Assembly (NCBI RefSeq): GCF_023638055.1 | Contig: NZ_JAKRVY010000001.1 | Span: 503,815-567,814 of the forward strand | DNA from: Natranaeroarchaeum aerophilus | GTDB taxonomy: Archaea; Halobacteriota; Halobacteria; Halobacteriales; Natronoarchaeaceae | Direction: 5' to 3' | DNA: 64,000 nucleotides | Shown here: positions 34,468-59,819 of the stretch, one piece after another | How the letters are laid out: each line of letters starts with the position of its first letter | Position numbering within the stretch: position 1 is the stretch's first letter | Program-made: the position numbers and the translations under genes | Notes under the pieces: model-generated | The model's input: only the letters and a program-made list of their open reading frames with translations | Told to the model about the DNA's origin: nothing | Database searches by the model: none

Positions 34468-34490
34468 TAGTCGGCGATTCCTCACTGCTC

Positions 34491-34715: not shown

Positions 34716-34753
34716 GCGTCGCTCGGTGGGCAAGGAGAGAGAAAGAGAGCGCG

Positions 34754-35251: not shown

Positions 35252-35288
35252 GTTTTTTTCTGGGAACTGGAACTGGATGTGATCCAGC

Positions 35289-37333: not shown

Positions 37334-37423
37334 GGTGTGCCTATCTGGATAATTCAGAACTGTATTTGGGAAACACAATTGATAAGTTAATTCCATCGCC
37401 ATCTGCTGTCAGACACATAACCT

Positions 37424-37957: not shown

Positions 37958-38092
37958 TCGGTTTTAACTCCAGTTGAACACTCATGTACGACGGATAGAA
38001 GAACCGCGTCCGGAAATGAAGGGAAAGTCGGACGGATCCCGCCCCGATCACGACGGGAACCCCCACCAAAAACGACATTATCCCGCGTTGCC

Positions 38093-38115
38093 GTCCGGGT
38101 TCAGGCTACCCGGAC
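38093..38115. repeat. Palindrome with 7-bp spacer before recombinase A
   Basis: GTCCGGGT-TCAGGCT-ACCCGGAC, perfect 8-bp arms, ends at the base before the recombinase ATG (38,116). Further GTCCGG-type motifs lie within 115 bases upstream. The layout fits a tyrosine-recombinase core site and also a hairpin masking the start codon. The counterpart is 45,975-45,998. Confidence 0.55.
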
Positions 38116-38695
38116 ATGAATCTGAAAGCCCACGCCCAACGCGACGACATGAAGGTCTGGCTCAGCCAGTCCGAAGTGAATCAACTGATCGACCAGGCGG
38201 ACGGCACCCAGCAGCGGATCGCCTTCTCGCTCGGTGCTCGCTGCGGGCTCCGAAGCCACGAGGTCCTCGACGTCGCGCCGGAGCACGTCGTCGACACTGA
38301 CGCCGGAACGATGCTCCGGGTCTGGCACGGGAAAGGCGACCAGTACCGCGAAACGCCGGTCCCGCGAGATCTCGCCACTACGATCCGCACGATCGACGAC
38401 GTGCGCGACCAGAGCGCCAGCTCGTCGCTACTCGACATCACGTCGACGCGCTCACTTCGGCGGTGGATCCAGAACGCCGCCGATCGCCTCCAGGACGAAA
38501 CCGGCGACGAGGGCTGGAACCATCTCGGATTTCACGATCTCCGGCGGACCTGGGCGACCGCGCTCGCCAGCGCGGACGTCGACGCTCTGCGACTGGGGCC
38601 GCTGGAACGATCTGGAGACGTTTCTGGAGCACTACCGTGGGACGTACTCGCCGGAAGCCCAACAGCGAGAACGAGGAAAGGTCGACTGGCTGTAA
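38116..38695 (+). pseudogene. Cassette A short tyrosine recombinase, frameshifted
   Basis: It matches the intact recombinase at 45,999 over its whole length, but an 8-bp deletion near 38,586 (CTGCTGGT lost, between CTG repeats) shifts the frame before the catalytic Tyr. The first part keeps the catalytic Arg (GLRSHEV), Lys (HGKG) and HxxR (FHDLRRTW). The shifted remainder still reads WNDLETFLE on another frame to the original stop at 38,695. It should be inactive. Confidence 0.8.
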
Positions 38696-39570: not shown

Positions 39571-40584
39571 CTATTTCGGAAGGTCTTGCTGACGGACTGC
39601 CATCTTCTCGCGTTCCGTCCGCGCGTCGTAGTGCTGATACAGAACGTCGAGCGAGACGTCCATCCGTTCGCTCACCGTCTCCGGTGCAGTTTCAGCGTTC
39701 AGGTGGTTCGTGATCGCTCCCCGGCGGACCGCGTGCGGTGATCGGGCGGACGGACACCTCGACGGAACCGCGTCACGTCCGCGAGCATCGCAGGTCTCCG
39801 GCGTCTCGTCGTGGGGGCAACTCGCGTACGTACACGGGTGCAGCGCTCGAATCACCCACTTGTATATCGATCCGCCGGAAGCTCGTGTTCCCATCTGCGT
39901 CGAGAACAGCGGGCGGCGACCGTGCTCGTCGGTAACTTCTGGTCGGTCGGGATTCGAGACGTAATCGTCGAGGATCTGGAACCAGCGCGGCCCCAGATAC
40001 ACCCAGCGTGTTCCGTCGTCGCCGTTCTTCAGTCCCGTTCCGGTCTCCGGACGGTGCTCGACGTAGACCGCGTTATCGTCACCGTCGAGATCGTTGACAT
40101 CGATGGCGCGCGCTGCACCGCGACGCATCCCCGTCCGCCACAGCAGCGCAAGCAAGGCGTGATCTCGGCTGGCGTAGTGATGTCGGTCGTGATACTCCAG
40201 TGCACGCTTTGCCCGATCGGGCGAGAGAAACACATCTCGGGACTCGGCCCCGTCCGGCAGCTCCGGAGCGTGTAGCTTCTCGGCCAGTCCCTTCTCGACG
40301 GCTTCGATATCAGCCCACCATCGCAGGGCGACCCGAACGCTACTCAGCTGCTTCTGGAGCGTAATCGCCGCGACGTCGGAACGACGCCAGGCGACGAAGT
40401 CGGAGAGATCACGACCGGACAGTTCGTTCAGGTTGTGGATCTCCCGTTCATCGCACCACTCCAGAAACGCGTTCAAGCGCGTTCGTGTATTCTGTAACGA
40501 ACTCTCCCGGATCGATGGCTCTCGGTGTCGGATGAATCGCTCGACGCCTTCTTCGGGAGAGAGGTGTTCCAGGTCCTCGCTCAC
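39571..40584 (-). CDS. Tyrosine integrase (int1)
   Basis: A 337-residue phage-type integrase. It has an N-terminal SAM-like core-binding domain (SIRESSLQNTRTRLNAFLEW) and a catalytic domain with Arg in WRTGMRRGAARAI. A Cys-rich insert (CTYASCPHDETPETC) comes before SPHAVRRGAITNHL (HxxR), and the Tyr lies in LYQHYDARTEREK. GTG 40,584 overlaps the upstream stop as GTGA. It is the last gene of a coupled six-gene operon and is a clear paralogue of int2 at 58,803. Confidence 0.9.
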   Translation of the reverse strand: MSEDLEHLSPEEGVERFIRHREPSIRESSLQNTRTRLNAFLEWCDEREIHNLNELSGRDLSDFVAWRRSDVAAITLQKQLSSVRVALRWWADIEAVEKGLAEKLHAPELPDGAESRDVFLSPDRAKRALEYHDRHHYASRDHALLALLWRTGMRRGAARAIDVNDLDGDDNAVYVEHRPETGTGLKNGDDGTRWVYLGPRWFQILDDYVSNPDRPEVTDEHGRRPLFSTQMGTRASGGSIYKWVIRALHPCTYASCPHDETPETCDARGRDAVPSRCPSARSPHAVRRGAITNHLNAETAPETVSERMDVSLDVLYQHYDARTEREKMAVRQQDLPK

Positions 40585-40811
40585 GCGGATCCCTCCCCGA
40601 CACTCGCCGCCGGAAAGTCGTCCTCGACGATCTGGTCTTTGAGCTGGTCGACCAGCCACTCGGCGTCAGCACGGCGGGCGGGACTCACCGAGTCGTCGAC
40701 CTGCGCGACCGCGCTCGCCGGATCCTCGGCCGCGCCACTGGCGAGCTGGTAGGACGCCGCGCGGGCGATCGTCTGCACCCGCTTCCAGTGACGGTCGTCG
40801 AGCGGGTTCAC
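40581..40811 (-). CDS. Small helical protein upstream of int1
   Basis: A 76-residue acidic helical protein (NPLDDRHWKRVQTIARAASY, DAEWLVDQLKDQI), unrecognised. The GTG start overlaps the stop of the upstream gene and its stop overlaps the start of int1, so all are translated together. A similarly placed small gene precedes int2 (59,816-59,980), which hints at a role as excisionase or integrase partner. Confidence 0.6.
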   Translation of the reverse strand: MNPLDDRHWKRVQTIARAASYQLASGAAEDPASAVAQVDDSVSPARRADAEWLVDQLKDQIVEDDFPAASVGEGSA

Positions 40812-41472: not shown

Positions 41473-41668
41473 GGTCCTCACCTCCGGCGTCGACGTGCGG
41501 GGGGATCTCCAGCCCACGCTCACGGCGCTGCTCGACCATCCGCGCCTCGCGATCGTCGCGACAGAACGAACAGATCGACGGGCGGGTTTGCTTGTCCGCG
41601 GGGACGTCCGGCTTGTACCGGAGCTGGTCAGCCTCGCCACAGTCGTCACACTCGCCGAACAGGCTCAT
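41462..41668 (-). CDS. Small zinc-finger protein, cassette B
   Basis: A 68-residue protein with CDDCG and CSFCRDDREAR zinc-binding pairs, in the style of DksA/TraR-like or CPxCG haloarchaeal proteins. It is the intact form of the broken gene at 34,270. It starts with ATGA overlapping the HTH stop at a junction reading GGTCGGCATGA, similar to junctions in the int2 operon. Confidence 0.65.
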   Translation of the reverse strand: MSLFGECDDCGEADQLRYKPDVPADKQTRPSICSFCRDDREARMVEQRRERGLEIPPHVDAGGEDHAE

Positions 41669-41946
41669 GCCGACCCCTCCGTTTCGTCTCCGGGGAACGC
41701 CACTTCCTCGGCATCCAGCACTTCGAGTTTCACCTTCCGGCGGGCACGCCGGAGTAGCGTCGAGATCGTTCCCGGCTTCCGGTCGGTCTGGCGTGCGAAC
41801 TCCCGGACCCCGCTGGTCCCGAGTTCGACCGCCTCGTAGGCTTCGAGTTCCGCCTCCGACAGGATCTCAAGGACGGGATACTTTTCAATCAGCGATTCAT
41901 CGCTAGCCGTGCGGGCGTTTTCGCCCGTTTGAGTGGTTTCGTGCAT
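41665..41946 (-). CDS. Sigma-70 region 4-like HTH protein, cassette B
   Basis: A 93-residue protein. Residues about 27-75 form a sigma-region-4/LuxR-like HTH (SEAELEAYEAVELG, FARQTDRKPGTISTLLRRARRK). It is the first gene of the six-gene int1 operon and is divergent from two winged-helix genes. A paralogue heads the provirus replication genes (57,769). It is probably a DNA-binding regulator of the element. Confidence 0.7.
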   Translation of the reverse strand: MHETTQTGENARTASDESLIEKYPVLEILSEAELEAYEAVELGTSGVREFARQTDRKPGTISTLLRRARRKVKLEVLDAEEVAFPGDETEGSA

Positions 41947-42163
41947 AGGAGCACCCCGGAACCACCTTCTCCGGGTCGGCGTCCTAGCGCCGTCCCGGTA
42001 TCCCACCACTTTCAGCTACGGGTGTAGCCAAGGCGGGGGTGGTCCCGTGAGACACACAAAGAACGTATCGTACATAAATGTACGGAATGTTCTAGAAACA
42101 TCTTAACGTGTTTTGAATAACCCTACGTGATTGTTATATTGGTTGGGTGTATCTATGTACTCA
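41947..42163. promoter_or_regulatory. Divergent promoter region, int1 operon and winged-helix genes
   Basis: 217 bases between divergent genes. TTATATT at 42,134-42,140 lies about 26 bases before ATG 42,164, giving a leaderless transcript for the winged-helix gene. AT-rich stretches near 42,060-42,120 may serve the other strand. The whole segment is deleted from cassette A. Confidence 0.5.
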
Positions 42164-42484
42164 ATGAGACGGTCTGGTGCGTGGATGACGATCTGGGACG
42201 ACCGGATCCTCGAAATTCTACGTGACGAGGACTCCGGCACGCCCTCGAAGCTCGCCGAACGCGAACAGATACGGGTCAAGCGGCCACAGGTCTCGCGACG
42301 ACTCCAGAAACTCAGCGAGCGTGGGCTCGTGAAGCCGCTGGGGAACGGCGTTTATATTATCACCGAGAGGGGAGAGGGCTATCTCGACGGTGAGATCTCC
42401 ACCTACGAGGACGAGCCCGACGAGATCAGGGAGAACGGCGGGGAGGAGAACGACGACGGCGTACCGTCACCAGGTGGTATCTGA
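42164..42484 (+). CDS. PhiH1-repressor-like winged-helix protein 1, cassette B
   Basis: A 106-residue winged helix: TIWDDRILEILRDEDSGTPS, VKRPQVSRRLQKLSERGLVK, then a wing GNGVYIITERGEGYLDGEI. It belongs with the halophage phiH repressor-like proteins that hold proviruses silent. ATG 42,164 is preferred over earlier in-frame starts because a TATA box sits 26 bases before it. Its stop overlaps the next gene's ATG. Confidence 0.75.
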   Translation: MRRSGAWMTIWDDRILEILRDEDSGTPSKLAEREQIRVKRPQVSRRLQKLSERGLVKPLGNGVYIITERGEGYLDGEISTYEDEPDEIRENGGEENDDGVPSPGGI

Positions 42485-42759
42485 TGACTGGCCGGCACAA
42501 CGCTGCCTGGATGAAACGCGAGGACGAACGCATCCTCGAATATCTCGGCTCCGAGGACATGGCGAGCGCACGACTGATCTCCCGCGAGGCGTTCCGGCAG
42601 GTCTCGGCGGGCCACGTCGCCGAACGACTGGCAAAGCTCGAATATGCCGGGCTGGTCCACCGCGTCGGGACCACCTCCTTCGAGCTGACCTGCGAGGGCG
42701 AGCGGTATCTCGCTGGCGATCTCGACGCCAAGCATCAACCCCGCCCGCGCCGAGTGTAG
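42484..42759 (+). CDS. PhiH1-repressor-like winged-helix protein 2, cassette B
   Basis: A 91-residue winged helix (MKREDERILEYLGSEDMASA, AGHVAERLAKLEYAGLVHR, CEGERYLAGDLD) with a basic tail PRPRRV. It is coupled by ATGA to the first winged-helix gene. It converges on the pilin genes with 41 bases between stops. The truncated cassette A copy is at 34,491. Confidence 0.75.
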   Translation: MTGRHNAAWMKREDERILEYLGSEDMASARLISREAFRQVSAGHVAERLAKLEYAGLVHRVGTTSFELTCEGERYLAGDLDAKHQPRPRRV

Positions 42760-42800
42760 CTGTCGCTACGTGGGCTGGGAGAGAGTAGAAAGAGAGCGCG

Positions 42801-43298
42801 TTATCGATCCTCGACTTCGTACTCGAACAGCGTCGCCGACGTGTCGGCGTCGGCACTGCTCCAGATCACGCTGATCTCGGTGCCGGGGTCGAGTTCATCG
42901 GGACTGCTCCCGCCGAAGTCGGCGTTATCAGCAGTGGTGAATCCGCTTCCGTCCGCAGCGATGTACAGTGAACTCTGTGACCGAAGCCCCTCGTTGGAGT
43001 TCGACCAGTCGGCACCCGTCTCGCTGACGGTCTCGCCGTCGACGACGACCGAGATCGTGTCGAGGTCCCCGATCGTGTTTCCGGTCATGTGGTACATGCG
43101 GACGAACTGATCGTGATCCCCACCGTACTGTTCGGCGTCGAATCGGACATCGGGTGATTCCTCGACGTCGCCTGCGCTTTGGTACAGGTCTATTGCGAAG
43201 ATACCGATTACTGACGCGAGTATGACGACTATCGCGACGAGAAGGATCGTACCAATGACTGATGATTGGGCACTGTCGTCTGAAAGAATGGAACGCAT
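42801..43298 (-). CDS. Type IV pilin-like protein, cassette B, third gene
   Basis: A 165-residue pilin with N-helix AQSSVIGTILLVAIVVIL and a long beta-rich domain, nearly identical to the cassette A third pilin (DVEESPDVRFDAEQYGGDHD is unchanged). The lack of divergence, against the strong change in pilins one and two, suggests a structural or assembly role (base or minor pilin) rather than an exposed variable face. That reading is inference. Confidence 0.8.
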   Translation of the reverse strand: MRSILSDDSAQSSVIGTILLVAIVVILASVIGIFAIDLYQSAGDVEESPDVRFDAEQYGGDHDQFVRMYHMTGNTIGDLDTISVVVDGETVSETGADWSNSNEGLRSQSSLYIAADGSGFTTADNADFGGSSPDELDPGTEISVIWSSADADTSATLFEYEVEDR

Positions 43299-43323
43299 TG
43301 GTTGCTACTGAGGATCCGTCGGA

Positions 43324-43848
43324 TTAGCCGACCTCGTAGTCAGACAGGACGGACGAATCGCCTCCATCGTCGGATGTCCAGACGATCCGGATGGTGTCAC
43401 CAGATGTTAATAGCTCGCTATCTCCATCGAAGGTTTCACTATCTGATTTTGTATCGTCATATCCAACAACTCTGACACTCTGACCAGCACTAACAGAGCC
43501 TGTTCCATCCCAAAGACCAACTGTATCGGCCGCCGGACCGCTACCGTCACTATCCCAAGCAGTCTCTCCTTCGGCGGTGATTTCTAGATTACTTTCGTCA
43601 ATAGTTGTTCCAGTACTGTGCGTGATTGTTACAGTTTTTGCATCCGACTCTGTACTTACAAATTCGATCTCTTCAGTTGTTTGGTCAAAATCCCAACTAG
43701 CCTGTGGAACTGTCGACTGATCATCGCCGATTCCGATAACAAATGCACCAATAACAGCTGCTAGAATCACCGTTATGGCGACCATTAATATGACCCCTAT
43801 GACAGGCGATACAGCCGAATCGTCTACGAATATATTTTTGATATTCAT
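43324..43848 (-). CDS. Type IV pilin, cassette B, second gene
   Basis: A 174-residue PilA-class pilin: DSAVSPVIGVILMVAITV, then GIGDDQSTVPQASWDF, then a diverged outer domain (THSTGTTIDESNLEITAEG, IRIVWTSDDGGDSSVLSDYEV). Its start is 3 bases from the stop of the first pilin. The DNA is AT-richer than its flanks. It differs from its cassette A partner mainly in the outer domain. Confidence 0.85.
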   Translation of the reverse strand: MNIKNIFVDDSAVSPVIGVILMVAITVILAAVIGAFVIGIGDDQSTVPQASWDFDQTTEEIEFVSTESDAKTVTITHSTGTTIDESNLEITAEGETAWDSDGSGPAADTVGLWDGTGSVSAGQSVRVVGYDDTKSDSETFDGDSELLTSGDTIRIVWTSDDGGDSSVLSDYEVG

Positions 43849-43851
43849 AGT

Positions 43852-44328
43852 TTACTGGACTTCAAAGTCGAATAGTACAGACGAGTCACCGCCGTCATCA
43901 GAGGTCCACACTACTCGAATTGTTTCTCCTTCATTTAGGTCGTTATCGCCGCTATCGTCGTCATCTGTAATCGTATAGGTAGATCCTGCGCTTACTGGAT
44001 CGCCAAACGGACTCAGACTGGAAGTACTAGTCACCCAGTCGTCGGCGTCATCGCCATCGATTGTAACCGCTAAGTTGCTTTCATCGATGGTGGCACCGGT
44101 CTGATGAGTAATCTCAACTTCAACATCTTCGCCGTTATCTACTTGATTATCTTGATTACTGTCCCAACTCGCTTGTGGGACGGTTGACTGATCGTCACCA
44201 ATCCCAATCACGAACGCACCGATCACAGCCGCCAAAATTACTGTTATGGCGACCATAAGAATTACTCCGATAACCGGAGAAACAGCCCGTTCGTCGCCGT
44301 CTGTTTCGAATAGTTTTTTGAAATCCAT
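43852..44328 (-). CDS. Type IV pilin, cassette B, first gene
   Basis: A 158-residue PilA-class pilin beginning MDFKKLFETDGDERAVSPV exactly as in cassette A. The outer domain (THQTGATIDESNLAVTIDG, VVWTSDDGGDSSVLFDFEVQ) differs from A in sequence and in length. It is the first gene of the operon behind the conserved control region. The start is placed at ATG 44,328. Confidence 0.85.
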   Translation of the reverse strand: MDFKKLFETDGDERAVSPVIGVILMVAITVILAAVIGAFVIGIGDDQSTVPQASWDSNQDNQVDNGEDVEVEITHQTGATIDESNLAVTIDGDDADDWVTSTSSLSPFGDPVSAGSTYTITDDDDSGDNDLNEGETIRVVWTSDDGGDSSVLFDFEVQ

Positions 44329-44561
44329 AGTTTTCCTTAGTTTTCGTTGGTTGCGCCGACATGCGGCCAAAGGATTAATATCTTACACTTGCGTGGTGTA
44401 AGATGAGGCAAGGGGTCGAGGGCTACAACACCCCTCCTCGCCTGTCCTTTCGCGTGCTGTCGGCGTTACACGTAGGAAGACATCCACCCCTAATAAAACT
44501 TGAGCCAAATATGATGAACTACTACATAAATGGACCCTAATTAGCATGTGTCTATAATAAA
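44329..44561. promoter_or_regulatory. Cassette B divergent pilin/regulator control region
   Basis: It carries the same elements as cassette A: TATA-like ATTAATAT for the pilins, the inverted repeat CTTACAC-N7-GTGTAAG at 44,382-44,402 (arms unchanged, centre changed from A), the GC-rich hairpin, and an AT-rich lead-in to the regulator. Conservation of the arms but not the centre points to protein binding. Confidence 0.65.
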
Positions 44562-45356
44562 ATGAATACTACCGGACTATCGCCCAAAGCTCTCGCGCGC
44601 ACCTACGACGTACAGAACCGTTCGGACGCATGGGAGGCCGTAGAGGACTACCAGCGGTATCTCGACGTCGCCGCCCAGAACCCAGACAGTGGCTCCAGCG
44701 CACTCTCGTCGAAACTGGAGATGCCGCGCGGGCGCATCCGCTCGTGGGAGAACGGAGCAAAGCCCGATCCCGCCCGCGCCGTCGAGGTCGCCGAGCACCG
44801 CGACTGGTTCGGCGGCCCCGAAACTGACGAGTTCGCGGCGCTGAACCAGCTCGTCGCGTGGATCTTCTCCGGGGGGTCGATCTCCTCGGAGACCTTCGTC
44901 CCGCATTTCGCCGTCGACGACGCGACCGAGTCACGGGTGACCGACGCGCTGGAGACGCTGGGGCTCGACTGGCGACGCGAGCGCGCCGACGAGTCGGACC
45001 GGGCCACCGAGATCGTGCCCACGGACCACGCCAGCGTACTCGGGCGGGCGCTGGTCGTCCTCGGCGCGCCTCAGGGCGAAAAGAGCGACCAATCGGCGTT
45101 CTCGCTGCCGGAGTATCTCGACAACGCGCCGGACGAGATCCGCGCCGAGTTTGTCGACGTCTACATTCGGAACCGCTACACGGACCACGACCGGCTGGTG
45201 ATGGGCTTTCGAGAGCAACGATCCAAAGCGTACCTGCAGGAGCTGGCGAGCCTGATCGAAGACGTCGCCGGCGAGTCGGTTACCGTCAGCGAGAAGAACA
45301 TCTACCTTTCAGCTGAGGCGGCCGATGCTCTATACGGGAACTCCCGGCCATTTTGA
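44562..45356 (+). CDS. Predicted DNA-binding regulator of the pilin cassette
   Basis: A 264-residue protein. Residues 45-80 look like an HTH (SSALSSKLEMPRGRIRSWEN, with AVEVAEHRDWF after). The C-terminal part has a pattern recalling half of a LAGLIDADG fold (LGRALVVLGAPQGEK, LPEYLDNAPDEIRAEFVDVY) but without the catalytic acids. It is divergent from the pilins across the operator region. The intact form of the broken gene at 36,538. The role as pilin regulator is inferred from position. Confidence 0.6.
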   Translation: MNTTGLSPKALARTYDVQNRSDAWEAVEDYQRYLDVAAQNPDSGSSALSSKLEMPRGRIRSWENGAKPDPARAVEVAEHRDWFGGPETDEFAALNQLVAWIFSGGSISSETFVPHFAVDDATESRVTDALETLGLDWRRERADESDRATEIVPTDHASVLGRALVVLGAPQGEKSDQSAFSLPEYLDNAPDEIRAEFVDVYIRNRYTDHDRLVMGFREQRSKAYLQELASLIEDVAGESVTVSEKNIYLSAEAADALYGNSRPF

Positions 45357-45382
45357 TCAGGCTTATTGACTAAATAACGAGA

Positions 45383-45832
45383 TTACTCGTTCGGCGCAGT
45401 ACTGGTGCTAATTGTGGCAGAATCGCTCTCGTCCGCAGAGACCCATTCAAGCGTTATTGTCTCCCCTGACCATTCTTCCCCGACTGCACTATGAGAGCCG
45501 AGGTCAAACTGACTTCCAGCTGAGACGGTCGGATTCGACTCAGTGACCCAATCTTCAGATTCTCCATTAATGATGACTTCCAGAGAGTCTGGCTCTTCAA
45601 CCGAATCTCCACTTGAATGAGTTAGTGCCCCTTCGCCACTATTCTCGAAATCAAAGTCTATAGCCATTTGTGGGACAGTTGATTCGGTTGTCGAATCATT
45701 TTCTTCTTCATTATTCCCAGAGTTTTCATCTTCATTTTCATCTCCTTCATCAGCACCGAGGCAACCGCTGAGAACTGATACTGCAACACTTGAAGCGAGT
45801 ATTTTTCTTCGACTTGTGACGCTGTTAGCCAT
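45383..45832 (-). CDS. Lipoprotein with pilin-like outer domain, cassette B cargo
   Basis: A 149-residue lipoprotein. It has a signal with basic start (TSRRKILASS), lipobox LSGC at about residue 23, and an acidic Asn/Glu linker. The outer domain follows the pilins of the same cassette step by step: VPQMAIDFDF, THSSGDSVEEPDSLEVIING, VSAGSQFDL, ETITLEWVSADESDSATIST. It lacks the pilin N-helix, so it should be lipid-anchored rather than polymerised. It occupies the cargo slot between regulator and recombinase. Confidence 0.7.
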   Translation of the reverse strand: MANSVTSRRKILASSVAVSVLSGCLGADEGDENEDENSGNNEEENDSTTESTVPQMAIDFDFENSGEGALTHSSGDSVEEPDSLEVIINGESEDWVTESNPTVSAGSQFDLGSHSAVGEEWSGETITLEWVSADESDSATISTSTAPNE

Positions 45833-45974
45833 GGCCAGTGATTTTTACCCCTGTCCAATAAATGACTAGTTCTTCTGTTGAGAACTCGTCCGGAAAGAGA
45901 GGGAAAGTCGGACGGATCCCGCCCCGATCACGCCGGGAAACCCCACCAAAAACGACATTACCCCCCGCGTTGCC

Positions 45975-45998
45975 GTCCGGGTTACAGGCTACCCGGAC
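45975..45998. repeat. Palindrome with 8-bp spacer before recombinase B
   Basis: GTCCGGGT-TACAGGCT-ACCCGGAC: the same arms as at 38,093-38,115 and a spacer longer by one base, again ending right at the recombinase ATG. The orientation is the same, so recombination between the two would excise 7,882 bp. Confidence 0.55.
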
Positions 45999-46586
45999 AT
46001 GAATCTGAAAGCCCACTCCCAACGCGACGACATGAAGGTCTGGCTCAGCCAGTCCGAAGTGAACCAACTGATCGATCAGGCGGACGGCACCCAGCAGCGG
46101 ATCGCCTTCTCGCTCGGCGCTCGGTGCGGGCTTCGAAGCCACGAGGTCCTCGACGTCGCGCCGGAGCACGTCGTCGACACTGACGCCGGAACGATGCTCC
46201 GTGTCTGGCATGGAAAAGGCGACCAGTATCGGGAGACACCGGTGCCGCGGGATCTCGCGACGACCATCCGCACGATCGACGACGTGCGCGACGCCAGCGC
46301 CAACTCGTCGCTGCTCGACATCACGTCGACGCGCTCGCTTCGGCGGTGGATCCAGAACGCCGCCGATCGCCTCCAGGACGAAACCGATGACGAGGGGTGG
46401 AACCATCTCGGCTTTCACGATCTCCGGCGTACCTGGGCGACCGCGCTCGCCAGCGCCGACGTCGACGCCCTGCTGGTCTGCGACTGGGGCGGGTGGAACG
46501 ATCTGGAGACGTTTCTCGAACACTACCGCGGGACGTACTCGCCGGAAGCCCAACAGCGAGAAAGAGGGAAAGTCGGCTGGTTATGA
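45999..46586 (+). CDS. Short tyrosine recombinase, cassette B
   Basis: A 195-residue protein that is only the catalytic domain of a tyrosine recombinase: Arg in GARCGLRSHEV, Lys in WHGKGDQ, HxxR in FHDLRRTW, Trp in CDWGGWND and Tyr in LEHYRGTYS. The usual N-terminal core-binding domain is absent, and a palindrome abuts the start, so no earlier start is likely. It probably acts with a partner or as a directly binding short form. It is intact, unlike its cassette A copy. Confidence 0.85.
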   Translation: MNLKAHSQRDDMKVWLSQSEVNQLIDQADGTQQRIAFSLGARCGLRSHEVLDVAPEHVVDTDAGTMLRVWHGKGDQYRETPVPRDLATTIRTIDDVRDASANSSLLDITSTRSLRRWIQNAADRLQDETDDEGWNHLGFHDLRRTWATALASADVDALLVCDWGGWNDLETFLEHYRGTYSPEAQQRERGKVGWL

Positions 46587-47030: not shown

Positions 47031-47143
47031 AACTGAGCGGGCAACGTACGGTCTAATAAAAGTGGTGTAACCAGAGGGTAAACGGTGGTCAAACCAAGGA
47101 AATCCTAAGTTTTTCCGCGGCACGCGTGGCCGGTCTCGTCGCA

Positions 47144-47569
47144 ATGTCCTATGCAAACTGGATCCCTGACGGGGTCCGACGAGAAGACGGCATCGACCTG
47201 ATCGACGCGGTACTCGCTCCGCTGTTCGTGCTGGCGAGTTTTAGCACGGCCGCGGTCGGCTCGCTCGAGCTGTACGATCCGATCAACTGGGGCTTCGAAG
47301 ACATCCTGTACGCCGCGGGTGGCTCCGAGATCACCCTCGGCTTCGTCGTGACCATGATCACGATCGTCACCGCCTGGGTGACCAACGGCCAGACGAGCGT
47401 CGACGACTTCACCGACGTCGAAACGATCACGCTCCTGCTGGCGATCGTGCTGAACGTCAGTATGGCGCTGGTCCCACTGGTCTCGAACACGGTCGAAGCG
47501 CAGTGGTTCCTCGGCTGGTTCCTGGTCATGCTCAACGGCGCCGCGTTCTACCTGATCGCCTACAAGTGA
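47144..47569 (+). CDS. Pleolipovirus VP3-like internal membrane protein
   Basis: A 141-residue protein with four hydrophobic segments ([18 protein letters not shown] and [17 protein letters not shown] among them) and a short polar start [15 protein letters not shown]. Size, topology and position directly before the spike gene match the VP3 membrane protein of pleolipoviruses. ATG 47,144 is preferred over GTG 47,126. It is the first gene of a five-gene virion operon. Confidence 0.7.
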
Positions 47570-47579
47570 GGTCCCAAGT

Positions 47580-50468
47580 ATGAGTACACAACCAACTGAC
47601 GACGAGAGCCCACCGCCCACGCCCACGGCCCACCGCTCAGAGGGGGGTCCGATTCCGAGCACCGTGCTCGACCGCCGGACGTTCCTCCGCGGGACCGCGG
47701 CGGCCGGCGGGACTGCACTCGCTGCGGGGACGGCTACAGCTGACGACGAGGACGACGGCGTCCAGGGCGATGAGATCGACGAGGATCTCGACGAGGACTT
47801 CTGGATCACCACCGACGGCGGCAATGATCCTCGGGACCTATCGTCCGGGCTACTGTTCGCCGCGTCACCGCCTGCGTGGGTGCTCTGGCAAGGTGTAGAT
47901 CTCCTCGGCGAATATATCTGGGGTCCCGATCAAGACGACCTCGAAAGCGCCGAGGCCGCCACTCTCTGGATGGAAGCACGGGATGCACAGCAGGCACTCT
48001 ATAACTTCGAGGCGATGCTGTCGAACCGCCTCACTGACGCCCAAACTATCGCCAACATCGAGGCCCGCCACGGGATCGCCTCGGGATGGGAAGACGGCGA
48101 GGCAGCGAGTGACGCTTACGCTCGCGCTCTCGAACGTATTCGGGGCTACTACGAACCCATCGAGGCGAACCACTGGGAGATCGGCGTGTTCACCATGGTC
48201 CAACTCGGTTTCATCGCCGAAGCTGGGACTGACGAGGACCAACTACCCGAGGAAAATGGTTGGGCAACTGCTCTTGCCGATTACGACGGCACCGACGAGC
48301 ACGTCTTTTGCCGACCAACCAACGAGGAATGGGTCGCCGACTCCGACGCCGACGACTACGACGGTCCGGTCGAATCCGCCGACCTGCACAACGGCTACGG
48401 CTACCAGCTATCATACTACACGAAGATGCGCTTCTTCACCTCTGGGGGTGATAGCTACGAGGTCCCCTTCTCCGAGTTCATCAATTCGTGGGACGAAACT
48501 GCCGGAGAGGTCGTCATCCAGGGGGACAACCACGAATGGACCACAAACGGCCAGTTCACCACTCCGAACGTCCCTGAAATCGACGAGTCGGGGTTAATCG
48601 CATTTGAGACCGAGGAGTACGTCAAACACTTCGACACCATCGAGGAGCAGAGCGACGAGATCGTCGCCAACTACGATACTGAGTTCGTCCAGCAGCTATT
48701 CGACGGCCTCGACGACGGCACGATCGACGCCTCGCAAGTCCGTGGTGTCGAAGGTCAGGCGCGTTTCATGTCGGGATCGACCGACGCAACAGAGCACCGG
48801 TACCGCCTCTCGCTCCTGCAAATCCTCGGCCTCGATCAGTCTGACCTTTCTGAAATTGCCAGTATGGTGATTTCTTACGATGGGTTTACTGATCGGACTT
48901 TTGAGAGCACCGACGGCGGCGACCGCCAGCAGGTCCTACTCGACGAAACTGAGGAAACACAGACCTACGAGGGTCAACTATTCGCCCGTGAAACCCCTGC
49001 CGATGGATTTCAGTCTGGCGGCGAATACCTCGCCGGACAGTACTACTTCAGACAGTCGAACGACGACGACACTGTGACACTTCACACCTTCGACGGCGAA
49101 GAACTCTGGAGCCACGATACTGGTGGTCTTGAGGATATGGTGTATTCTCCCGAAGATCGCGCGATATACGTCTGCTACGACACTACCGTCGAACGGATTA
49201 ACGCCGCTGACGGTACACTCGACTGGCAAGAAGACTACGCCAACGATTTCGTCCGCCACCTTTGCGTGATGGAAGACGGTCATCTAATGGCGTCCGGTTA
49301 CCTATCCGACGACCCGATTCTCAAAATTGATCGGGAAACTGCCGACGTGGTCGATGAACAAAGCGTATCGTTCAATCCTGACGGTCTGTTCGCAAACCCC
49401 GATGGGACTGAGTTCGCAACTGGTGGAAACGACGAAATTACCATCTACGACGGTGATTTCGAGACTGTAGCCACCGTAGCAAACGGACTCCGTGAGGGCT
49501 CTGCATCTCCTGACGGGGATTACCTCTACACAGTTGACCAAGACACCGACGACCTCGTCAAGTATGAGTGGTCTACGCTTGACGAAGTGTGGTCTGTAAA
49601 CCACTTCACCGACCGGATCGACGACCTCGACGCAGGGCATGATGTTGTCGCCGCTTGCAATGGCGACGGCTACGTTTTCACTGTCGATACCGCTGACGGT
49701 GAAATCAACTCGCAAAACCAGTTCGGCACGAATAATATCAGGGCTGTCTCGCTCCGGTACGATGAATCCCACTTCATCGCCGAGGATTACAGCGATGATG
49801 TGAGTCGGATCCTCGACGTGGACACTGCTGACGTAACCAGCATATTCAAAGAAAACAATCAACCGGCGACCGGATTCTCTGTTCCGTCTCCAAACGCCGC
49901 AGATGTTGACGGTCTTGTCGATGGTGCGCTCATGTATGATGCACTCGACTCCGGCGAGATCGAACTGCCACTCGGGACGTTTACGCTGGACGAGATGACG
50001 GACTCGGACGGCGAAGAGATCTCGCCGATCACCGACCAGACGATCACCGACATCGAGGCGCAAGCCGACCGCGACATCGAGGACATCGTGGCCGACATCG
50101 AGGAGATCGAGAGCGTCGACGACATCACTGACCTCAACGACCTGAACCTGATCCTCGAAGCCGAAGAACTCGACGGGGGCGAGATCGAGACGGACTCGAC
50201 CGACTGGTCGGCTCCCGACTACGATTCGATGGATAACGAGGAGTACGGTATCCAGATCTCCGAAGTCGGCGATTACATCATTGAGGAAACGGACCTGTAT
50301 AGCGACGATGACGACGACGGGGGCGACTGGTGGCCGTCTGTCTCGGGGCCGGACTTCGGCGGCGACGGCTTCGGTGCCCAACTCGCCGGGCTCGCCGTGA
50401 TCGCCGCGATCGTGGTCTCGGTAATCTGGTCGGTCGTGAGTGACGCCGTTCCGTTCATCGGTAACTGA
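47580..50468 (+). CDS. Pleolipovirus VP4-like spike protein with inserted beta-propeller
   Basis: A 962-residue exported protein. A twin-arginine signal is at residues 31-55 (DRRTFLRGTAAAGGTALAAG). There is one transmembrane anchor at the C-terminus (AGLAVIAAIVVSVIWSVV). The flanking parts are rich in Glu/Asp and have the look of pleolipovirus spikes. Residues about 480-760 read as a WD/YVTN-like propeller (LHTFDGEELWSHD, YTVDQDTDDLVKYEW). The propeller DNA has lower GC and A/T-ended codons. The protein is about twice the length typical of the family. It should make the receptor-binding and fusion spike. Confidence 0.75.
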   Translation: MSTQPTDDESPPPTPTAHRSEGGPIPSTVLDRRTFLRGTAAAGGTALAAGTATADDEDDGVQGDEIDEDLDEDFWITTDGGNDPRDLSSGLLFAASPPAWVLWQGVDLLGEYIWGPDQDDLESAEAATLWMEARDAQQALYNFEAMLSNRLTDAQTIANIEARHGIASGWEDGEAASDAYARALERIRGYYEPIEANHWEIGVFTMVQLGFIAEAGTDEDQLPEENGWATALADYDGTDEHVFCRPTNEEWVADSDADDYDGPVESADLHNGYGYQLSYYTKMRFFTSGGDSYEVPFSEFINSWDETAGEVVIQGDNHEWTTNGQFTTPNVPEIDESGLIAFETEEYVKHFDTIEEQSDEIVANYDTEFVQQLFDGLDDGTIDASQVRGVEGQARFMSGSTDATEHRYRLSLLQILGLDQSDLSEIASMVISYDGFTDRTFESTDGGDRQQVLLDETEETQTYEGQLFARETPADGFQSGGEYLAGQYYFRQSNDDDTVTLHTFDGEELWSHDTGGLEDMVYSPEDRAIYVCYDTTVERINAADGTLDWQEDYANDFVRHLCVMEDGHLMASGYLSDDPILKIDRETADVVDEQSVSFNPDGLFANPDGTEFATGGNDEITIYDGDFETVATVANGLREGSASPDGDYLYTVDQDTDDLVKYEWSTLDEVWSVNHFTDRIDDLDAGHDVVAACNGDGYVFTVDTADGEINSQNQFGTNNIRAVSLRYDESHFIAEDYSDDVSRILDVDTADVTSIFKENNQPATGFSVPSPNAADVDGLVDGALMYDALDSGEIELPLGTFTLDEMTDSDGEEISPITDQTITDIEAQADRDIEDIVADIEEIESVDDITDLNDLNLILEAEELDGGEIETDSTDWSAPDYDSMDNEEYGIQISEVGDYIIEETDLYSDDDDDGGDWWPSVSGPDFGGDGFGAQLAGLAVIAAIVVSVIWSVVSDAVPFIGN

Positions 50469-50470
50469 CC

Positions 50471-51022
50471 ATGCGCCGCTTCTTTTTTGCGCTACTGACG
50501 GTATCGGTAGCTCTGGCGGTGGGCATGGGTGTTATGGGCGTCACCGCACAGGAGACGCCGACCAACGAGACAGACGAGTTCGAGGACGACCTCGGCGACG
50601 AGTACGAGCAACTGATCGACGCCGAGACGCGAGTCGTCGAGTGGTCCTACGATAGCGGTGTCTTCACGATCACCGTCGACGCCGACGAGGACACGGAGCT
50701 GGGGATCACCGAAGCGGGCGGCTTCGAGGAAGGCTCGGGATCGTACAACTTCGAGACCGTCGAGATCCCCGAGGGCGAGTCGACGGTCACCTTCTCGACG
50801 CGGGACGGGAACGGCGCGGCAGTCACGATCTCGACCCAGGAGAGTCTCGCGCAGGGGACCGGTGCGTACCTCTCGACCGGGACCGACGTCGAGGAGAACC
50901 CGTTCCGGCACTTCGGCGGCACGTCGGGACTGTTCTCCGGCGTCGGCATGACCGTCCTGCTAGCGGGGCTCGCTGCTGGCTACGTCGTGCGCTCCGAGAA
51001 CCGGGGTGTCATTGAGAAATGA
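50471..51022 (+). CDS. Virion-block membrane protein with signal peptide (ORF6-like)
   Basis: A 183-residue protein with a Sec-type signal (FFFALLTVSVALAVGMGVMG), a beta-rich acidic body and a C-terminal transmembrane helix (GVGMTVLLAGLAAGYVV). It sits where pleolipoviruses carry ORF6 between the spike and ORF7 genes. It overlaps the next gene by ATGA and begins 2 bases after the spike stop. The exact role in the virion is unknown. Confidence 0.65.
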   Translation: MRRFFFALLTVSVALAVGMGVMGVTAQETPTNETDEFEDDLGDEYEQLIDAETRVVEWSYDSGVFTITVDADEDTELGITEAGGFEEGSGSYNFETVEIPEGESTVTFSTRDGNGAAVTISTQESLAQGTGAYLSTGTDVEENPFRHFGGTSGLFSGVGMTVLLAGLAAGYVVRSENRGVIEK

Positions 51023-51822
51023 GCGGGGACACTTCAGGCACCTTCGGCGGGTGGTCCGACCGACTGACGTACATCGCTGCCGAGGGCCAGCTGGTCGTGC
51101 TCGGGATCGCCTTCAGCATCGGCGTCTTGCTGCTGTGGTTCCGGCCGTCAGTGCCAGGCGTTCCGCCGATCGCGTTCGGCTGGTTCGCCGCGCTGTTGAT
51201 TCTGGGGCCGCCGCTGCTGGCGATGTTCGTCACCGGCGCGCGCAAGCTCCGGAACCGCCACATGGTCGAGGTACACCACATCAACGGCGTCACCGACAAG
51301 CGCCGGAAGCTCGACGTCGCGCCGGAACTGTGGGACGCAAAGAAGGTCGAAGGCCCGAGCCCGTATCCCGTGAACGACGGCGACGCCTACGAGGTTCGGG
51401 AGTTCGAGTACGACGAGGAACTCGACCAGCTCCGCGTGCGCGGCTGTTACTTCTCGCAACTCGCCGATTCGAAGCTGGTGACGGTGAAGGCGATGCTCGA
51501 AGACATTCACGGGGATCTGATAGAGGAATTCATCGCCAGCAACCGGCTCCGTGGGCGGATCTCGAAAATGGGCGTCGAGATCCAGAGCGACGTGGTCAAC
51601 AAGGAGGCTGAAGCCGACGAGCGCGGGCTGATGAACCCGCGGACCACGGTGAAAGAGCGCTTCGAGTCGGCGCGCGACGACGTCGAGGACGCTTCGATCG
51701 ACGAGATCCGCGACATGAACGACTACGTCGACGAGTACACCGACGAGCATGGGATCGACGCGGTCGGCGGACCGCCACAGACCCGCCAGCAGGCGGCCAC
51801 GGACGGTGGTACGAATGAGTGA
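51019..51822 (+). CDS. Virion-block membrane protein (ORF7-like)
   Basis: A 267-residue protein with two N-terminal transmembrane helices (VVLGIAFSIGVLLLWF and IAFGWFAALLILGPPLLAMF) and a soluble C-terminal part with mixed charged helices and a Thr/Gln-rich end. Position and topology fit ORF7 of pleolipoviruses. It overlaps both neighbours (ATGA at 51,019 and an 8-base overlap with the ATPase gene). Confidence 0.65.
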   Translation: MSGDTSGTFGGWSDRLTYIAAEGQLVVLGIAFSIGVLLLWFRPSVPGVPPIAFGWFAALLILGPPLLAMFVTGARKLRNRHMVEVHHINGVTDKRRKLDVAPELWDAKKVEGPSPYPVNDGDAYEVREFEYDEELDQLRVRGCYFSQLADSKLVTVKAMLEDIHGDLIEEFIASNRLRGRISKMGVEIQSDVVNKEAEADERGLMNPRTTVKERFESARDDVEDASIDEIRDMNDYVDEYTDEHGIDAVGGPPQTRQQAATDGGTNE

Positions 51823-52999
51823 CGAACAGGACAATTTCACGGTCGGCGGCTTTCGGGAGTACCAGGACGGCAATCTCGCGCGGGATCCCGACGAGGTGCT
51901 GGATCACTCGGGCTTTGTCCGCGACGAGAAGGTCGATCGGCAGATGACCATGCGGGCGGTCCACCACGATCCCGACCGCTGGGACGGCAAGGCCGCCGCG
52001 ACGTACATGGACGTCGGGAAGAACCGCGACATCCTCAAAGCCGAGGGGGCGACGACCGCCCGGAACGCGCTCGACAACGGGGATACCCTCACGCTCAAGC
52101 ACTATATCGGCGACCCAAGTCAGGAGGCGGACCTCTCGGGCATCAAGGCGATCTCCCGGCTCCGGCAGATCGTCGCCGGTCCCGCCCCGGTGATCGTTGT
52201 GCTCGGGGAGATGGGTGCCGGGAAAACGAACTTCGCTTGCTTGCTCGCCCAGCTCCGCGAGCGCTGGGTCGACGGGAATCTCATGGTCGGTTCGAATATT
52301 CGGACGCTCCCGCGCAACGACGACTGGGTGCGCGACGACGGGAGCGTCGAGGACGGCTGGATACCGAACTATCCACTCCTGAGTGAGTGGGTCCAGCAGG
52401 ACGGCGATCCCGTCGAGAACGCCCAACAGCCAAAGCTGTTCATCGGTGATGAGTTCTCGACGAACGCCTCAGGCTCGGGCAAGGACGGTCAGAAGGTCCG
52501 GAAGCTGATGGGGCCGCTCGTCTTCAAGATCCGCAAGTACGGCGGCGCGCTGATCTACATCGGCCACGACGAGTCGTCGATCCACCCGCTACTCTGGCGG
52601 GTCGGCACGATCATCAAAAAGCCGGATCGGAACAACCGCGGGAAGGCACTCATCGCTGAGCGGATCTCCGGCGGGAAGCTCCAGGACGTGGATCCCCAGC
52701 CGCTCACTGGGATCCCGCCCGCAGACTTCGAGCCGCATACGAACGACGAGGCTCCGTGGTCGTGGGACGCTCCGGTCGGCGGTGGCGACGACGGCGAGAG
52801 CTTCGAGGAGGCGGACGTGAAGCGTGTCGCCATGTGGACGGTGAAAACGGCGGTGCGCGACCAGGGGATGACGCCGAATCAGGCGGCCGAGTACGTCCCG
52901 TACTCGTCGACGACGGTGTACAACTGGTTGGAAGATTACGACTCGGGCGACCAGCAAAAGCGCGAATGGGTTGAAAGCGTGGAGTCGGTGATAGCATGA
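51815..52999 (+). CDS. Pleolipovirus VP8-like P-loop ATPase
   Basis: A 394-residue ATPase. Walker A is VLGEMGAGKTNFACLL at about residue 129, Walker B is LFIGDEFST, and a possible sensor region is GGALIYIGHDES. The C-terminal 60 residues form an HTH (MTPNQAAEYVPYSSTTVYNWL). In pleolipoviruses this gene closes the virion block and is thought to help assembly or genome packaging. ATG 51,815 is chosen. Confidence 0.8.
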   Translation: MSDEQDNFTVGGFREYQDGNLARDPDEVLDHSGFVRDEKVDRQMTMRAVHHDPDRWDGKAAATYMDVGKNRDILKAEGATTARNALDNGDTLTLKHYIGDPSQEADLSGIKAISRLRQIVAGPAPVIVVLGEMGAGKTNFACLLAQLRERWVDGNLMVGSNIRTLPRNDDWVRDDGSVEDGWIPNYPLLSEWVQQDGDPVENAQQPKLFIGDEFSTNASGSGKDGQKVRKLMGPLVFKIRKYGGALIYIGHDESSIHPLLWRVGTIIKKPDRNNRGKALIAERISGGKLQDVDPQPLTGIPPADFEPHTNDEAPWSWDAPVGGGDDGESFEEADVKRVAMWTVKTAVRDQGMTPNQAAEYVPYSSTTVYNWLEDYDSGDQQKREWVESVESVIA

Positions 53000-55353: not shown

Positions 55354-56976
55354 CTACCGGGTGAGCGAACGCACCCGACTGCGTCGCCGATCGCCGTCCG
55401 CGTTCAGCCACTCGACGCGCGCCTCCAGGAGCTCGGCGACGTCGCGACTGTCCTTTACCCAGGCCTTCTTTGCCTCCTTGAGGACGTCCTCGACGAGCGG
55501 GTACGAGGACGCTTTGAACTCCCCGAGTCGCGTGTCGATCCGAACCGTCGTGTCGTTACTGTCCGGGTCGAAATCGAACGATGCGGCGTACTTCTGCATC
55601 CACTTCTGGAACGCGCTCGACGCCGACTGCCGGACGTTCACGTTCATCAGCTTGGCCGCTCGATCGGCTGCGTTTTCGATACGGTGCTCGGCGCTCTCGA
55701 CGATCCCGGCAATCTCCTGCTCGATCTTCCGACTGGTGAACTCAACTTCGGCACGGTCGTTCCGGACCAGCCCATCGAGCCGGTCGAGGAACCGGTACAG
55801 CGTCGAGATCCCGCGGTCGGCGTTGTTCGCGAGTTCCTGGGGATGCTGGCCGTCACCTTCGTCGACCAGCGCCTCCAGAAAATCGACATCCGCCTCGGTC
55901 ATGTCTCGGAGCGTGGTGATCAACAGCGCGTCCTGTTTCGCCTCGATCTCCGGCGTCGGGTCCTCGAAGAACTCGACGTCCTCCTCGGCGGCCGTCGCCT
56001 CGAAGTGATCGTCAGCGACGAACGTGGTCCCGCCCGCGCCGACCGGGATATCCGACCACCGGAGCGTGTTGAGAAGCGTCTCGTCGATCTCCCGCCGGAG
56101 CGCGTCGCAGTTGTCCCACTTGAACGCTCGGCTCTTGTTCAGCGACTTCTTCAGTAGAACGCCGACTTTCGGATGGTGCAAGGGGTTGTCTTCGTCGCCG
56201 TTCACATACTCGGGGTGGTAGTGTTTCAGTTGCTTCCCCCGCGTGTGCATCGGGATCAACTCGCGGGCGTCGGTCTTCGGGATAATCAAGCGGTGGTTGT
56301 AGCCCACGATATCCTTGTTCGGCCCACAGTTGTCGGGTTTGTAGACGACACTCGACCCCTCCTTTTGTGCAAGGAGTTCGAAGATCCGCCGGAACGCACC
56401 GGTTGAGCGGATGTACTTCTGAGACATCGAGCGTTGGATCCGCACGTACCGCTCGTAGCTTGTGATGTTGCTCGTCGGGTGGATCCTGACAAAGGCACTC
56501 GAATTGAATCCCATCCCGGCTTCGCTGGCCAGCTCCTGTAGGACCTTCCGGAGTAGAACCGGGTAGGTATCTGGTTCCAGATTGCTCCCCGAGAACTTCA
56601 CGTTCGTCGCTTCGTCCGGGTAGTCATCGCTATCGCACGGGGAAGTGATGTTCTTGTCCTCTTCGTAGTGCTCCATCCCGGCGAACCGCGGGCGAACGTG
56701 GAAGTTGGCTTTTCGCTCGCCGTGCCCGTACGCCCCGATCCGGAACTCGTACAGTCGTTCCTCGACGTCGTCCTGGGAGCGCGGGGCGATCCCTCCTTTC
56801 TGGTACTTGAGGTTGATCGTCCACTCTTCTCCGGCGATCTCCGTGGTGAGGTCTCCGGAGTAGCCGTCGAAGCCGTGAAACAGGAGCTTCGAGATCGCCC
56901 AGTACGGACTGAGCCCATTCTGGAAGAAGTTCAGGTTCCCCTCGATCTCGTGGGGAGCTGTCGCGACGTGTGTCAC
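55354..56976 (-). CDS. Large replication-type protein of betapleolipovirus kind
   Basis: A 540-residue protein without rolling-circle motifs. It starts at GTG 56,976 (MTHVATAPHEIEGNLNFFQ), overlapping the previous stop. The first 350 residues are a conserved domain seen in betapleolipovirus putative replication proteins (FNSSAFVRIHPTSNITSYER). The C-terminal part has a winged-helix feature (ANNADRGISTLYRFLDRLDG) and basic helices. It should replicate the element's DNA. It is the last gene of the int2-directed operon. The family call rests on memory of SNJ2/HRPV-3-type genomes. Confidence 0.7.
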   Translation of the reverse strand: MTHVATAPHEIEGNLNFFQNGLSPYWAISKLLFHGFDGYSGDLTTEIAGEEWTINLKYQKGGIAPRSQDDVEERLYEFRIGAYGHGERKANFHVRPRFAGMEHYEEDKNITSPCDSDDYPDEATNVKFSGSNLEPDTYPVLLRKVLQELASEAGMGFNSSAFVRIHPTSNITSYERYVRIQRSMSQKYIRSTGAFRRIFELLAQKEGSSVVYKPDNCGPNKDIVGYNHRLIIPKTDARELIPMHTRGKQLKHYHPEYVNGDEDNPLHHPKVGVLLKKSLNKSRAFKWDNCDALRREIDETLLNTLRWSDIPVGAGGTTFVADDHFEATAAEEDVEFFEDPTPEIEAKQDALLITTLRDMTEADVDFLEALVDEGDGQHPQELANNADRGISTLYRFLDRLDGLVRNDRAEVEFTSRKIEQEIAGIVESAEHRIENAADRAAKLMNVNVRQSASSAFQKWMQKYAASFDFDPDSNDTTVRIDTRLGEFKASSYPLVEDVLKEAKKAWVKDSRDVAELLEARVEWLNADGDRRRSRVRSLTR

Positions 56977-57464
56977 GCCGACCACCTCGCTACCAGCCGC
57001 TCGACACCAGCGAGATACGCAAGGCCCAGCCCAACGCCAACGATCACGTCGGCCGGGTAGTGGACGCCGATCACGACCCGCGACGCCGCTATCGTCGCGA
57101 CGACCAGGGCGGCGAGCACGGTTCGGAGCCGAACCGATCCGACATCGAGACGCCGGGCGACGAGACCGTACGCGACAGTCGCCCCCAGGGCGTGACCGCT
57201 CGGGAAGCCGTACCCGCCGATCTCCGCGACCGGCGGCCGGGGCAACCCGAGCGCGTTCTTCAGCAGCGTCGTGAGCCCGATCGCACCGAGGACGGCGACG
57301 ACCGGCCACGGTCCACGATCCCGCTCGGCGACCAGCCACAGTCCCACGGCAATCGCAACGACGACCAGGTAATCACCGCCGGTCGTCACGATCCCCGCGG
57401 CGTCGATCAGCCACTCGGGAAGCGAACCGCGGAAGGATTCGAGCGTCTCCGGGTTCCGGATCAC
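56973..57464 (-). CDS. PAP2-family membrane phosphatase
   Basis: A 163-residue membrane phosphatase of the PAP2 superfamily with all three motifs intact: KNALGLPRPP (motif 1), GFPSGHALGA (motif 2) and SRVVIGVHYPADVIVG (motif 3). It has about five helices. Members remove phosphate from lipid or isoprenoid phosphates. GTG 57,464 overlaps the upstream stop as GTGA. It is unusual cargo for a virus-like operon and may act on membrane lipids. Confidence 0.8.
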   Translation of the reverse strand: MIRNPETLESFRGSLPEWLIDAAGIVTTGGDYLVVVAIAVGLWLVAERDRGPWPVVAVLGAIGLTTLLKNALGLPRPPVAEIGGYGFPSGHALGATVAYGLVARRLDVGSVRLRTVLAALVVATIAASRVVIGVHYPADVIVGVGLGLAYLAGVERLVARWSA

Positions 57465-58802: not shown

Positions 58803-59819
58803 TCATTTGTCTGGTAAATTATCTTTCCGGACACTCATCTTTTCGCGCTCGTCACGAGCGTCGTAGTGTTTGTACAGGATTTCGAGGCTGACATCCATCC
58901 GTTCGGAGGCGACTTCCGGCGAAGTGCCGTGTGTGAGATGGTAGGTTATCGAGCCCCGACGAAGCCCATGCGGTGACCTCGACGACGGGCAACGGCTCGG
59001 ATAGCCGTCCGTTGAGTTAGCCTCGCAGGTCTTCGGATCGCGATCATGTGGGCAGTCTCGCCCGTACTCACACGGCTGCGTCGCCATGTTGACCCATTTA
59101 TAGATAGTGTCGCCGGTCGGGCGGCCGTAGCGAGTGGTGAGCAGAGGCTCACGACCGTGGTCGTCAGTCACGTTAATGCGATTTTTGTCGATGTAGTCGT
59201 CGACGATCTGGTACCAGCGAGGGCCGAGATAGACCCATCGCTCGCCGTCATCGTGGTTCTTCAGTATCGTATCCGTTTCTGGACGGTGTTCGAGAACGAC
59301 GGCGTGTTCCTCTGGACGAAGATCATCGAGATCTATCGACCGAAGAGCCGACCGTCGCATTCCAGTCCGCCAGAGTAACGAAATGACGACGTGCCGCCGG
59401 CTGGCGTAGTCGTACCGATCGAGATATTCGAGGATCTCAGTAGCGTGCTGATTTTCGAGGTGAACATCGCGTGCTTCAGCGCCGTCCGGCAGCTCGGGAC
59501 TATGGAGTTTCTCGGCAAGGCCGTCTGTTACGCCCTCAATGTTAGCCCAGTACCGAAGCGCCATCCGAACCGTGGACAGCTGCTTCTGAAGCGTTACGGG
59601 CGCGATATCGTCACGCCGCCAGGCGACAAAATCAGCGAGGTCGCGGCCGGTGAGTTCGTTGAGATTCTCGATGTCGACTTCGTTGGCCCACTCTTTGAAG
59701 TGGCGCAGCCGCGTGCGGGCGTTGGCCATTGTCGACTCGCCGACACCCGACTCGTGGTGTCGGAGGAAACGATCGATACCGTCCTCAATATGAAGCGGTT
59801 GAAGATCGTCGTCGCTCAT
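58803..59819 (-). CDS. Tyrosine integrase (int2) of the provirus
   Basis: A 338-residue integrase with a core-binding domain (GVGESTMANARTRLRHFKEW), then catalytic Arg (WRTGMRRSALRS), a Cys-rich insert (CEYGRDCPHDRDPKTC), HxxR (SPHGLRRGSITYHL) and Tyr (LEILYKHYDARDER). It aligns end to end with int1. The ATG overlaps the stop of a 54-residue upstream gene by ATGA. It should integrate and excise the pleolipovirus-like element. Confidence 0.9.
   Translation of the reverse strand: MSDDDLQPLHIEDGIDRFLRHHESGVGESTMANARTRLRHFKEWANEVDIENLNELTGRDLADFVAWRRDDIAPVTLQKQLSTVRMALRYWANIEGVTDGLAEKLHSPELPDGAEARDVHLENQHATEILEYLDRYDYASRRHVVISLLWRTGMRRSALRSIDLDDLRPEEHAVVLEHRPETDTILKNHDDGERWVYLGPRWYQIVDDYIDKNRINVTDDHGREPLLTTRYGRPTGDTIYKWVNMATQPCEYGRDCPHDRDPKTCEANSTDGYPSRCPSSRSPHGLRRGSITYHLTHGTSPEVASERMDVSLEILYKHYDARDEREKMSVRKDNLPDK

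Follow-up and report, generated by a model that had tools for sequence, protein, structure and literature searches.

A 962-residue spike gene in the window (the whole stretch analysed here, 64,000 nucleotides of DNA from Natranaeroarchaeum aerophilus) raises the question of where the extra domain in its C-terminal half came from and what that domain does. The gene occupies the spike position in a provirus that resembles betapleolipoviruses and is kin to SNJ2, a temperate betapleolipovirus. The provirus genes are:

47126..47569, + strand: VP3-like membrane protein gene (PHROG 3232; synteny)
47580..50468, + strand: spike (VP4-like), 962 aa, with propeller insert (PHROG 2231, E = 1.7e-36; SNJ2 VP13 similarity)
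50471..51022, + strand: ORF6-like core gene (PHROG 1938)
51019..51822, + strand: ORF7-like core gene (63% to SNJ2 gp15)
51749..52999, + strand: pleolipovirus NTPase, with its true start probably near 51815 (78-81% to SNJ2 NTPase)
55354..57339, - strand: DUF7845 replication initiator, homologue of SNJ2 gp19 (Pfam, E = 3e-108)
58803..59819, - strand: SNJ2-type integrase (43% to SNJ2 gp1; Pfam)

The conserved block VP3-spike-ORF6-ORF7-NTPase is present around the 962-residue spike. Further, the pair that marks a betapleolipovirus, a DUF7845 replication protein and an SNJ2-type integrase, is found within one element; DUF7845 is the Rep-Arvir family (PMC13107129). A tRNA-Ser (gct) is predicted at 57049-57143, inside the 5' part of the DUF7845 reading frame, and is either a possible attachment site or a possible sign that this frame has been started too early. 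Elsewhere in the window, one stretch occurs twice (34107-38689 and 41505-46580), with copies about 7.4-8.0 kb apart and blocks about 78-94% identical; it contains an integrase fragment, a gp9-like regulator and several genes for pilin-like proteins. This is probably a provirus that was duplicated or is a second, partial one, and another SNJ2-type integrase is encoded at 39571-40659. An archaeal pilin-like protein at the provirus edge (43852-44370) is a relative of SNJ2 gp10, with several similar copies at 35-36 kb and 43-44 kb, and a long array of imperfect repeats with a 12-bp phase is seen at 33031-33650.

The 962-residue protein is a pleolipovirus spike with an inserted domain and a putative role in membrane fusion. 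It shares 28.7% identity with SNJ2 VP13 over residues 146-483 (E = 1e-23), and its sequence has a Tat motif and a hydrophobic C-terminus. A search of PDB sequences with the SNJ2 spike gave no match. The parts of the window spike are:

47661..47741, + strand: twin-arginine (Tat) signal, LDRRTFLRGTAAAGG..., residues 28-54 (sequence)
47946..48224, + strand: long-helix region, residues 123-215, presumed N1 subdomain of the spike shell (low-confidence full-length model; alignment conservation)
48225..48608, + strand: beta-rich variable region, residues 216-343, presumed N2 subdomain (full-length model; drop in pairwise identity)
48834..49943, + strand: low-GC3 tract, residues 419-788 (change points, residuals, exchange tracts of relatives)
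49038..49919, + strand: seven-bladed PQQ/WD-type beta-propeller, residues 487-780 (Pfam, PDB profile, AlphaFold2, Foldseek)
50376..50447, + strand: C-terminal membrane anchor helix, residues 933-956 (hydrophobicity; helix in the full-length model)

The N1 label is given by analogy with the work on HRPV-6 VP5, a monomeric membrane-fusion protein with a C-terminal anchor and with N2, the proposed receptor-binding subdomain, on top (PMC6381117). A full-length AlphaFold2 model (four sequences) reached a pLDDT of 45.3, which is too poor for placing the propeller on the spike. At this low confidence, its helices and strands come in the order expected for a V-shaped two-domain fold with a helical N1 bundle, and it repeats the propeller strand pattern of a separate model of residues 461-800. 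The spikes of pleolipovirus-like genomes (184 in all) have been modelled previously; the V-shaped fold was conserved and the variation was host-linked, and propellers were not mentioned (PMC10599561). Pleolipovirus spikes with a propeller were not found described anywhere in the freely accessible literature that was searched.

The preliminary description of this DNA read residues 480-760 as propeller blades. The fold stands, and the bounds are better placed at about 487-780. The Pfam model PQQ_2 (PF13360) matches the spike with an E-value of 1.8e-8 (34.8 bits against a curated cut-off of 27.6). A profile of 20 long spikes, compared with the PDB, matched BamB, PQQ, designed and archaeal S-layer propellers, with E-values as low as 1e-46; the matches span profile positions of about 464-755. 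The AlphaFold2 model of residues 461-800 (pTM 0.70, mean pLDDT 67.7) has 27 strands in four-stranded repeats, and thus seven blades. In Foldseek, the best-matching PDB entry for this model was 1l0q (E = 8e-15, TM 0.71), a YVTN propeller from a surface-layer protein of an archaeon. Together, the strands and the match to 1l0q support a closed ring of four-stranded blades with moderate confidence.

The same residues were said to differ from both flanks in GC and in codon endings, and they do. The GC content of residues 480-760 is 0.531, compared with 0.603 and 0.609 in the flanks, while GC3 is 0.616 against 0.714 and 0.792, and about 0.85 in neighbouring genes. Amino acid composition does not account for the GC3 dip: after correction with host codon use (a background of 19 host stretches), a residual of -0.156 is left. 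Among 174 comparable host windows, the within-gene GC3 contrast ranks in the bottom 0.6%, whereas the residual alone ranks only in the bottom 6%. Along the gene, maximum-likelihood change points were placed at residues 419 and 788 (log-likelihood gain of 23.9; permutation maximum 9.0, n = 60), so that the dip starts about 70 residues ahead of the propeller. An assembly artefact or a two-gene chimera could also give so sharp a change of composition, but the reading frame is uninterrupted and the same architecture in at least 20 other genomes refutes this explanation, leaving it a negligible probability.

Relatives of the spike were sought in haloarchaeal genomes (392 from the order, 125 of one family and 9 of the window's own family) and were found at the equivalent gene position. 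The resulting set of 51 related spikes comprises 24 long ones, including that of the window, and 27 short ones. Spikes with a propeller are 838-981 residues long, and those without it 501-644, except for two truncated to 343 and 387; the insert nearly doubles the spike, much as first described. All 24 long spikes carry an insert of about 310-340 residues at one hairpin. Across window columns 487-815, intact long spikes have 323-359 residues and nearly all intact short ones 35-60. In short spikes the site is the hairpin between the strands YEGLLFxxDxPxGGFxxGxTY and VxFxxGxFTIExMYDxDGNE, and both strands are kept in long spikes, where the propeller sits between ...GGFxxGxxY and VxFxxGxFTIxEMTDxDG, within the shell's C-terminal half. 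A peptide-pattern search for close relatives of the spike yielded three loci in the genome collection and none in IMG/VR. Among the matches listed from plasmid records there were separate PQQ-like propeller proteins only, none covering 80% of a spike. Near the spikes, a search for silent propeller cassettes gave nothing beyond the spikes themselves and one truncated spike at a contig edge. A PQQ-repeat propeller protein (BFVD R4T7S6) is also encoded by Haloarcula californiae tailed virus 2.

In a tree of the shell built without the insert, all 24 long spikes lie on one side of a single branch (support 100/98), and the isolates SNJ2, HRPV-3 and HHPV3 have short spikes. The insert was thus most simply gained once, early, in an ancestor of the long-spike clade, as far as these sequences indicate. 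The preliminary description suggested capture of a domain by recombination. An inserted domain in a pleolipovirus spike with insert-free homologues is indeed present, but the gain is old and common to the 24-spike clade; a capture private to this virus is ruled out by the same branch. As for the possibility that close homologues carry the region at normal codon use, the closest do carry the insert, but insert GC3 lies below both flanks in 19 of 22 relatives. Since the low GC3 recurs in this way, the signature alone gives no date for a recent capture here.

The kinship of the propellers themselves was also examined. Seven of ten long relatives scanned match PQQ_2 (L053 just below the cut-off); L050 is hit by a different propeller model, and neither L039 nor L052 is hit by any. 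In a leave-one-out propeller profile L039 is weak, and the insert of L052 is not recognisable as a propeller. L052 (8839-11415, - strand) is a long spike from a low-GC haloarchaeon, and its insert is perhaps a different domain in the propeller slot. The nearest kin of the window propeller are cellular PQQ proteins of about 403 residues (28%), and those of the L046 propeller, by single sequence, are likewise cellular PQQ proteins and not spikes; a search for donors of the two gave only cellular kin at about 28-33%. Together with the low GC3 of most inserts, this kinship would fit repeated independent captures of host PQQ-like propellers at one hot spot, with no exchange between spikes. Such a history is rather doubtful, however, as the propeller-bearing shells group in one clade, the window propeller scores well against a profile built from the other spike propellers (72.6 bits, E = 2e-24) and the nearest kin of the L037 propeller are other spikes.

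Within long spikes, the propeller has been replaced as a block, and repeatedly. In L037 and L046, from two species of one genus, the DNA matches at about 90% identity up to, and again beyond, a 938-bp stretch that cannot be aligned (L037 8952-9889, residues 457-769). Protein identity in this pair is 89% before the propeller, 15% within it and 86% after it, and dS is 0.56 and 0.47 in the flanks and saturated in the propeller. A similar pattern is seen in L033/L045 and L038/L040. The converse holds for L049/L051, in which the propeller is about 99% identical (dS 0.03) and the shell dS is 0.32 on the upstream side and 0.13 on the downstream side. With a single exception, every close pair is least conserved in the propeller, and the N2 region varies too (37-38% identity in L037/L044 and L046/L044). 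Very fast evolution of the propeller under selection, with no block exchange, would fit a fold that stays constant despite sequence differences and a repeat architecture that tolerates change. This explanation is largely excluded, and very improbable, because in L037/L046 the DNA similarity falls from about 90% to nothing and back within one spike, propeller sites are saturated at a flank dS of about 0.5, and in L049/L051 the flanks differ more than the propeller does.

Block exchange would most naturally have proceeded by recombination. The exchange tracts in relatives, given as window residues, are 469-778, 454-782 and 433-784, closely matching the low-GC3 tract at 419-788. From these relatives and from codon use, the window spike, too, appears to have received its propeller by exchange.

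Whole spike genes move as well. Changes between the long and short states number eight on the ORF7 tree (at least five of them forced, that is, required by well supported branches) and nine on the NTPase (ATPase) tree (at least eight forced), which indicates that spike genes pass between virus backbones. The window is itself an illustration, since its NTPase falls among those of SNJ2-like viruses, most of which have short spikes. L032 and L060, from one genus, have VP3, ORF7 and NTPase genes 85-90% identical in DNA, and one carries a propeller spike and the other a short one, an exchange of the spike gene itself. ORF6 was considered as a co-inherited partner of the spike, and this proved weak, with seven label changes on the ORF6 tree. 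The recent events are cassette exchange between spikes and spike exchange between viruses, while the capture is old.

The long and short spikes also differ in their export signals. A Tat-type signal, with an RR motif ahead of a weakly hydrophobic stretch, is present in 24 of 24 long spikes and in 2 of 27 short ones (L068 and L072), the remainder being strongly hydrophobic and Sec-like (Fisher 1.5e-12, a value inflated by shared ancestry). HRPV-3, which has a short spike, also has an RR motif of the Tat type. The need for Tat may come from folding of the propeller in the salty cytoplasm, and the association suggests that the added domain was linked to a switch from Sec to Tat export.

These observations can be assembled into one explanation. 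A propeller would have been gained once in the ancestor of the spike clade, placed in the shell hairpin of the C-terminal half, and afterwards exchanged as a block, repeatedly, through recombination in the conserved flanking shell, with the fusion shell retained. It would add a head of about 290 residues, a putative binder of the host surface (S-layer glycoprotein or glycan) on a conserved fusion machine, and the spike would be exported folded, via Tat. The probability of this whole explanation is put at roughly two in three. A modular, swappable domain for host-surface binding on a monomeric fusion spike is the most likely reading because replacement affects the propeller and leaves the fusion shell in place; the binding step is the inferred part. 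In favour of it, the closest solved fold to the window propeller is that of an archaeal surface-layer propeller (1l0q). Against it, N2, the known candidate for receptor binding, is still present and also variable.

The main rival to a host-binding head draws on that same retained, variable N2, which would remain the receptor binder, with the propeller serving as a spacer, shield or oligomerization module that changes how tall the spike stands or guards the fusion peptide. The insertion point falls within the C-terminal half; in HRPV-6 this half bears the membrane anchor and lies over the putative fusion peptide (PMC6381117). In addition, the C-terminal segment is lengthened in some long spikes (145-155 versus 74-98 residues). 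Such a role would not, however, need replacement by unrelated sequence, and the propeller is the least conserved part of nearly all close pairs; the spacer or shield reading is thus unlikely. Some long spikes, and no short ones, also have an acidic helical segment of about 60 residues (residues 820-870 or so), perhaps a longer stalk.

Returning to the host-binding head, very different propellers at one point of otherwise similar spikes look as if the host-gripping part were an exchangeable cartridge. Whether a clade of enveloped archaeal viruses changes the host surface that it recognises by exchanging the propeller as a unit on a Tat-exported fusion shell is an evenly balanced proposition. 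It has been proposed that pleolipovirus spikes constitute a class of membrane-fusion protein not reported before. Replacement of one block with the fusion shell kept is a natural experiment that separates binding from fusion, and the propeller is a compact soluble domain suited to receptor-binding tests.

Three known systems may be compared with this spike. It resembles the pleolipovirus spikes (VP4-like; HRPV-2 and HRPV-6 VP5; SNJ2 VP13) in gene order, in having a signal peptide, in its N-terminal long helices followed by a beta region, in its C-terminal membrane helix and in its similarity to SNJ2 VP13, but differs in carrying a propeller of about 290 residues in the C-terminal half, which nearly doubles its length, and in having a Tat and not a Sec-like signal. 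With the PQQ-like/BamB (PF13360) and YVTN/WD propellers, including 1l0q, it shares the seven-bladed fold and, in relatives, the blade motif D-x-x-DG-x-x-x-W, but here the fold is embedded in a viral spike and identity to 1l0q is only 16%. PQQ binding or enzyme activity is not expected for BamB-like members. Finally, phage receptor-binding proteins, with exchangeable tips on conserved anchors, offer the same combination of a conserved machine and a hypervariable, block-exchanged domain. Unlike a tail-fibre tip, however, the putative binding domain here lies inside the fusion protein of an enveloped archaeal virus, of which the HRPV-6 representative is monomeric.
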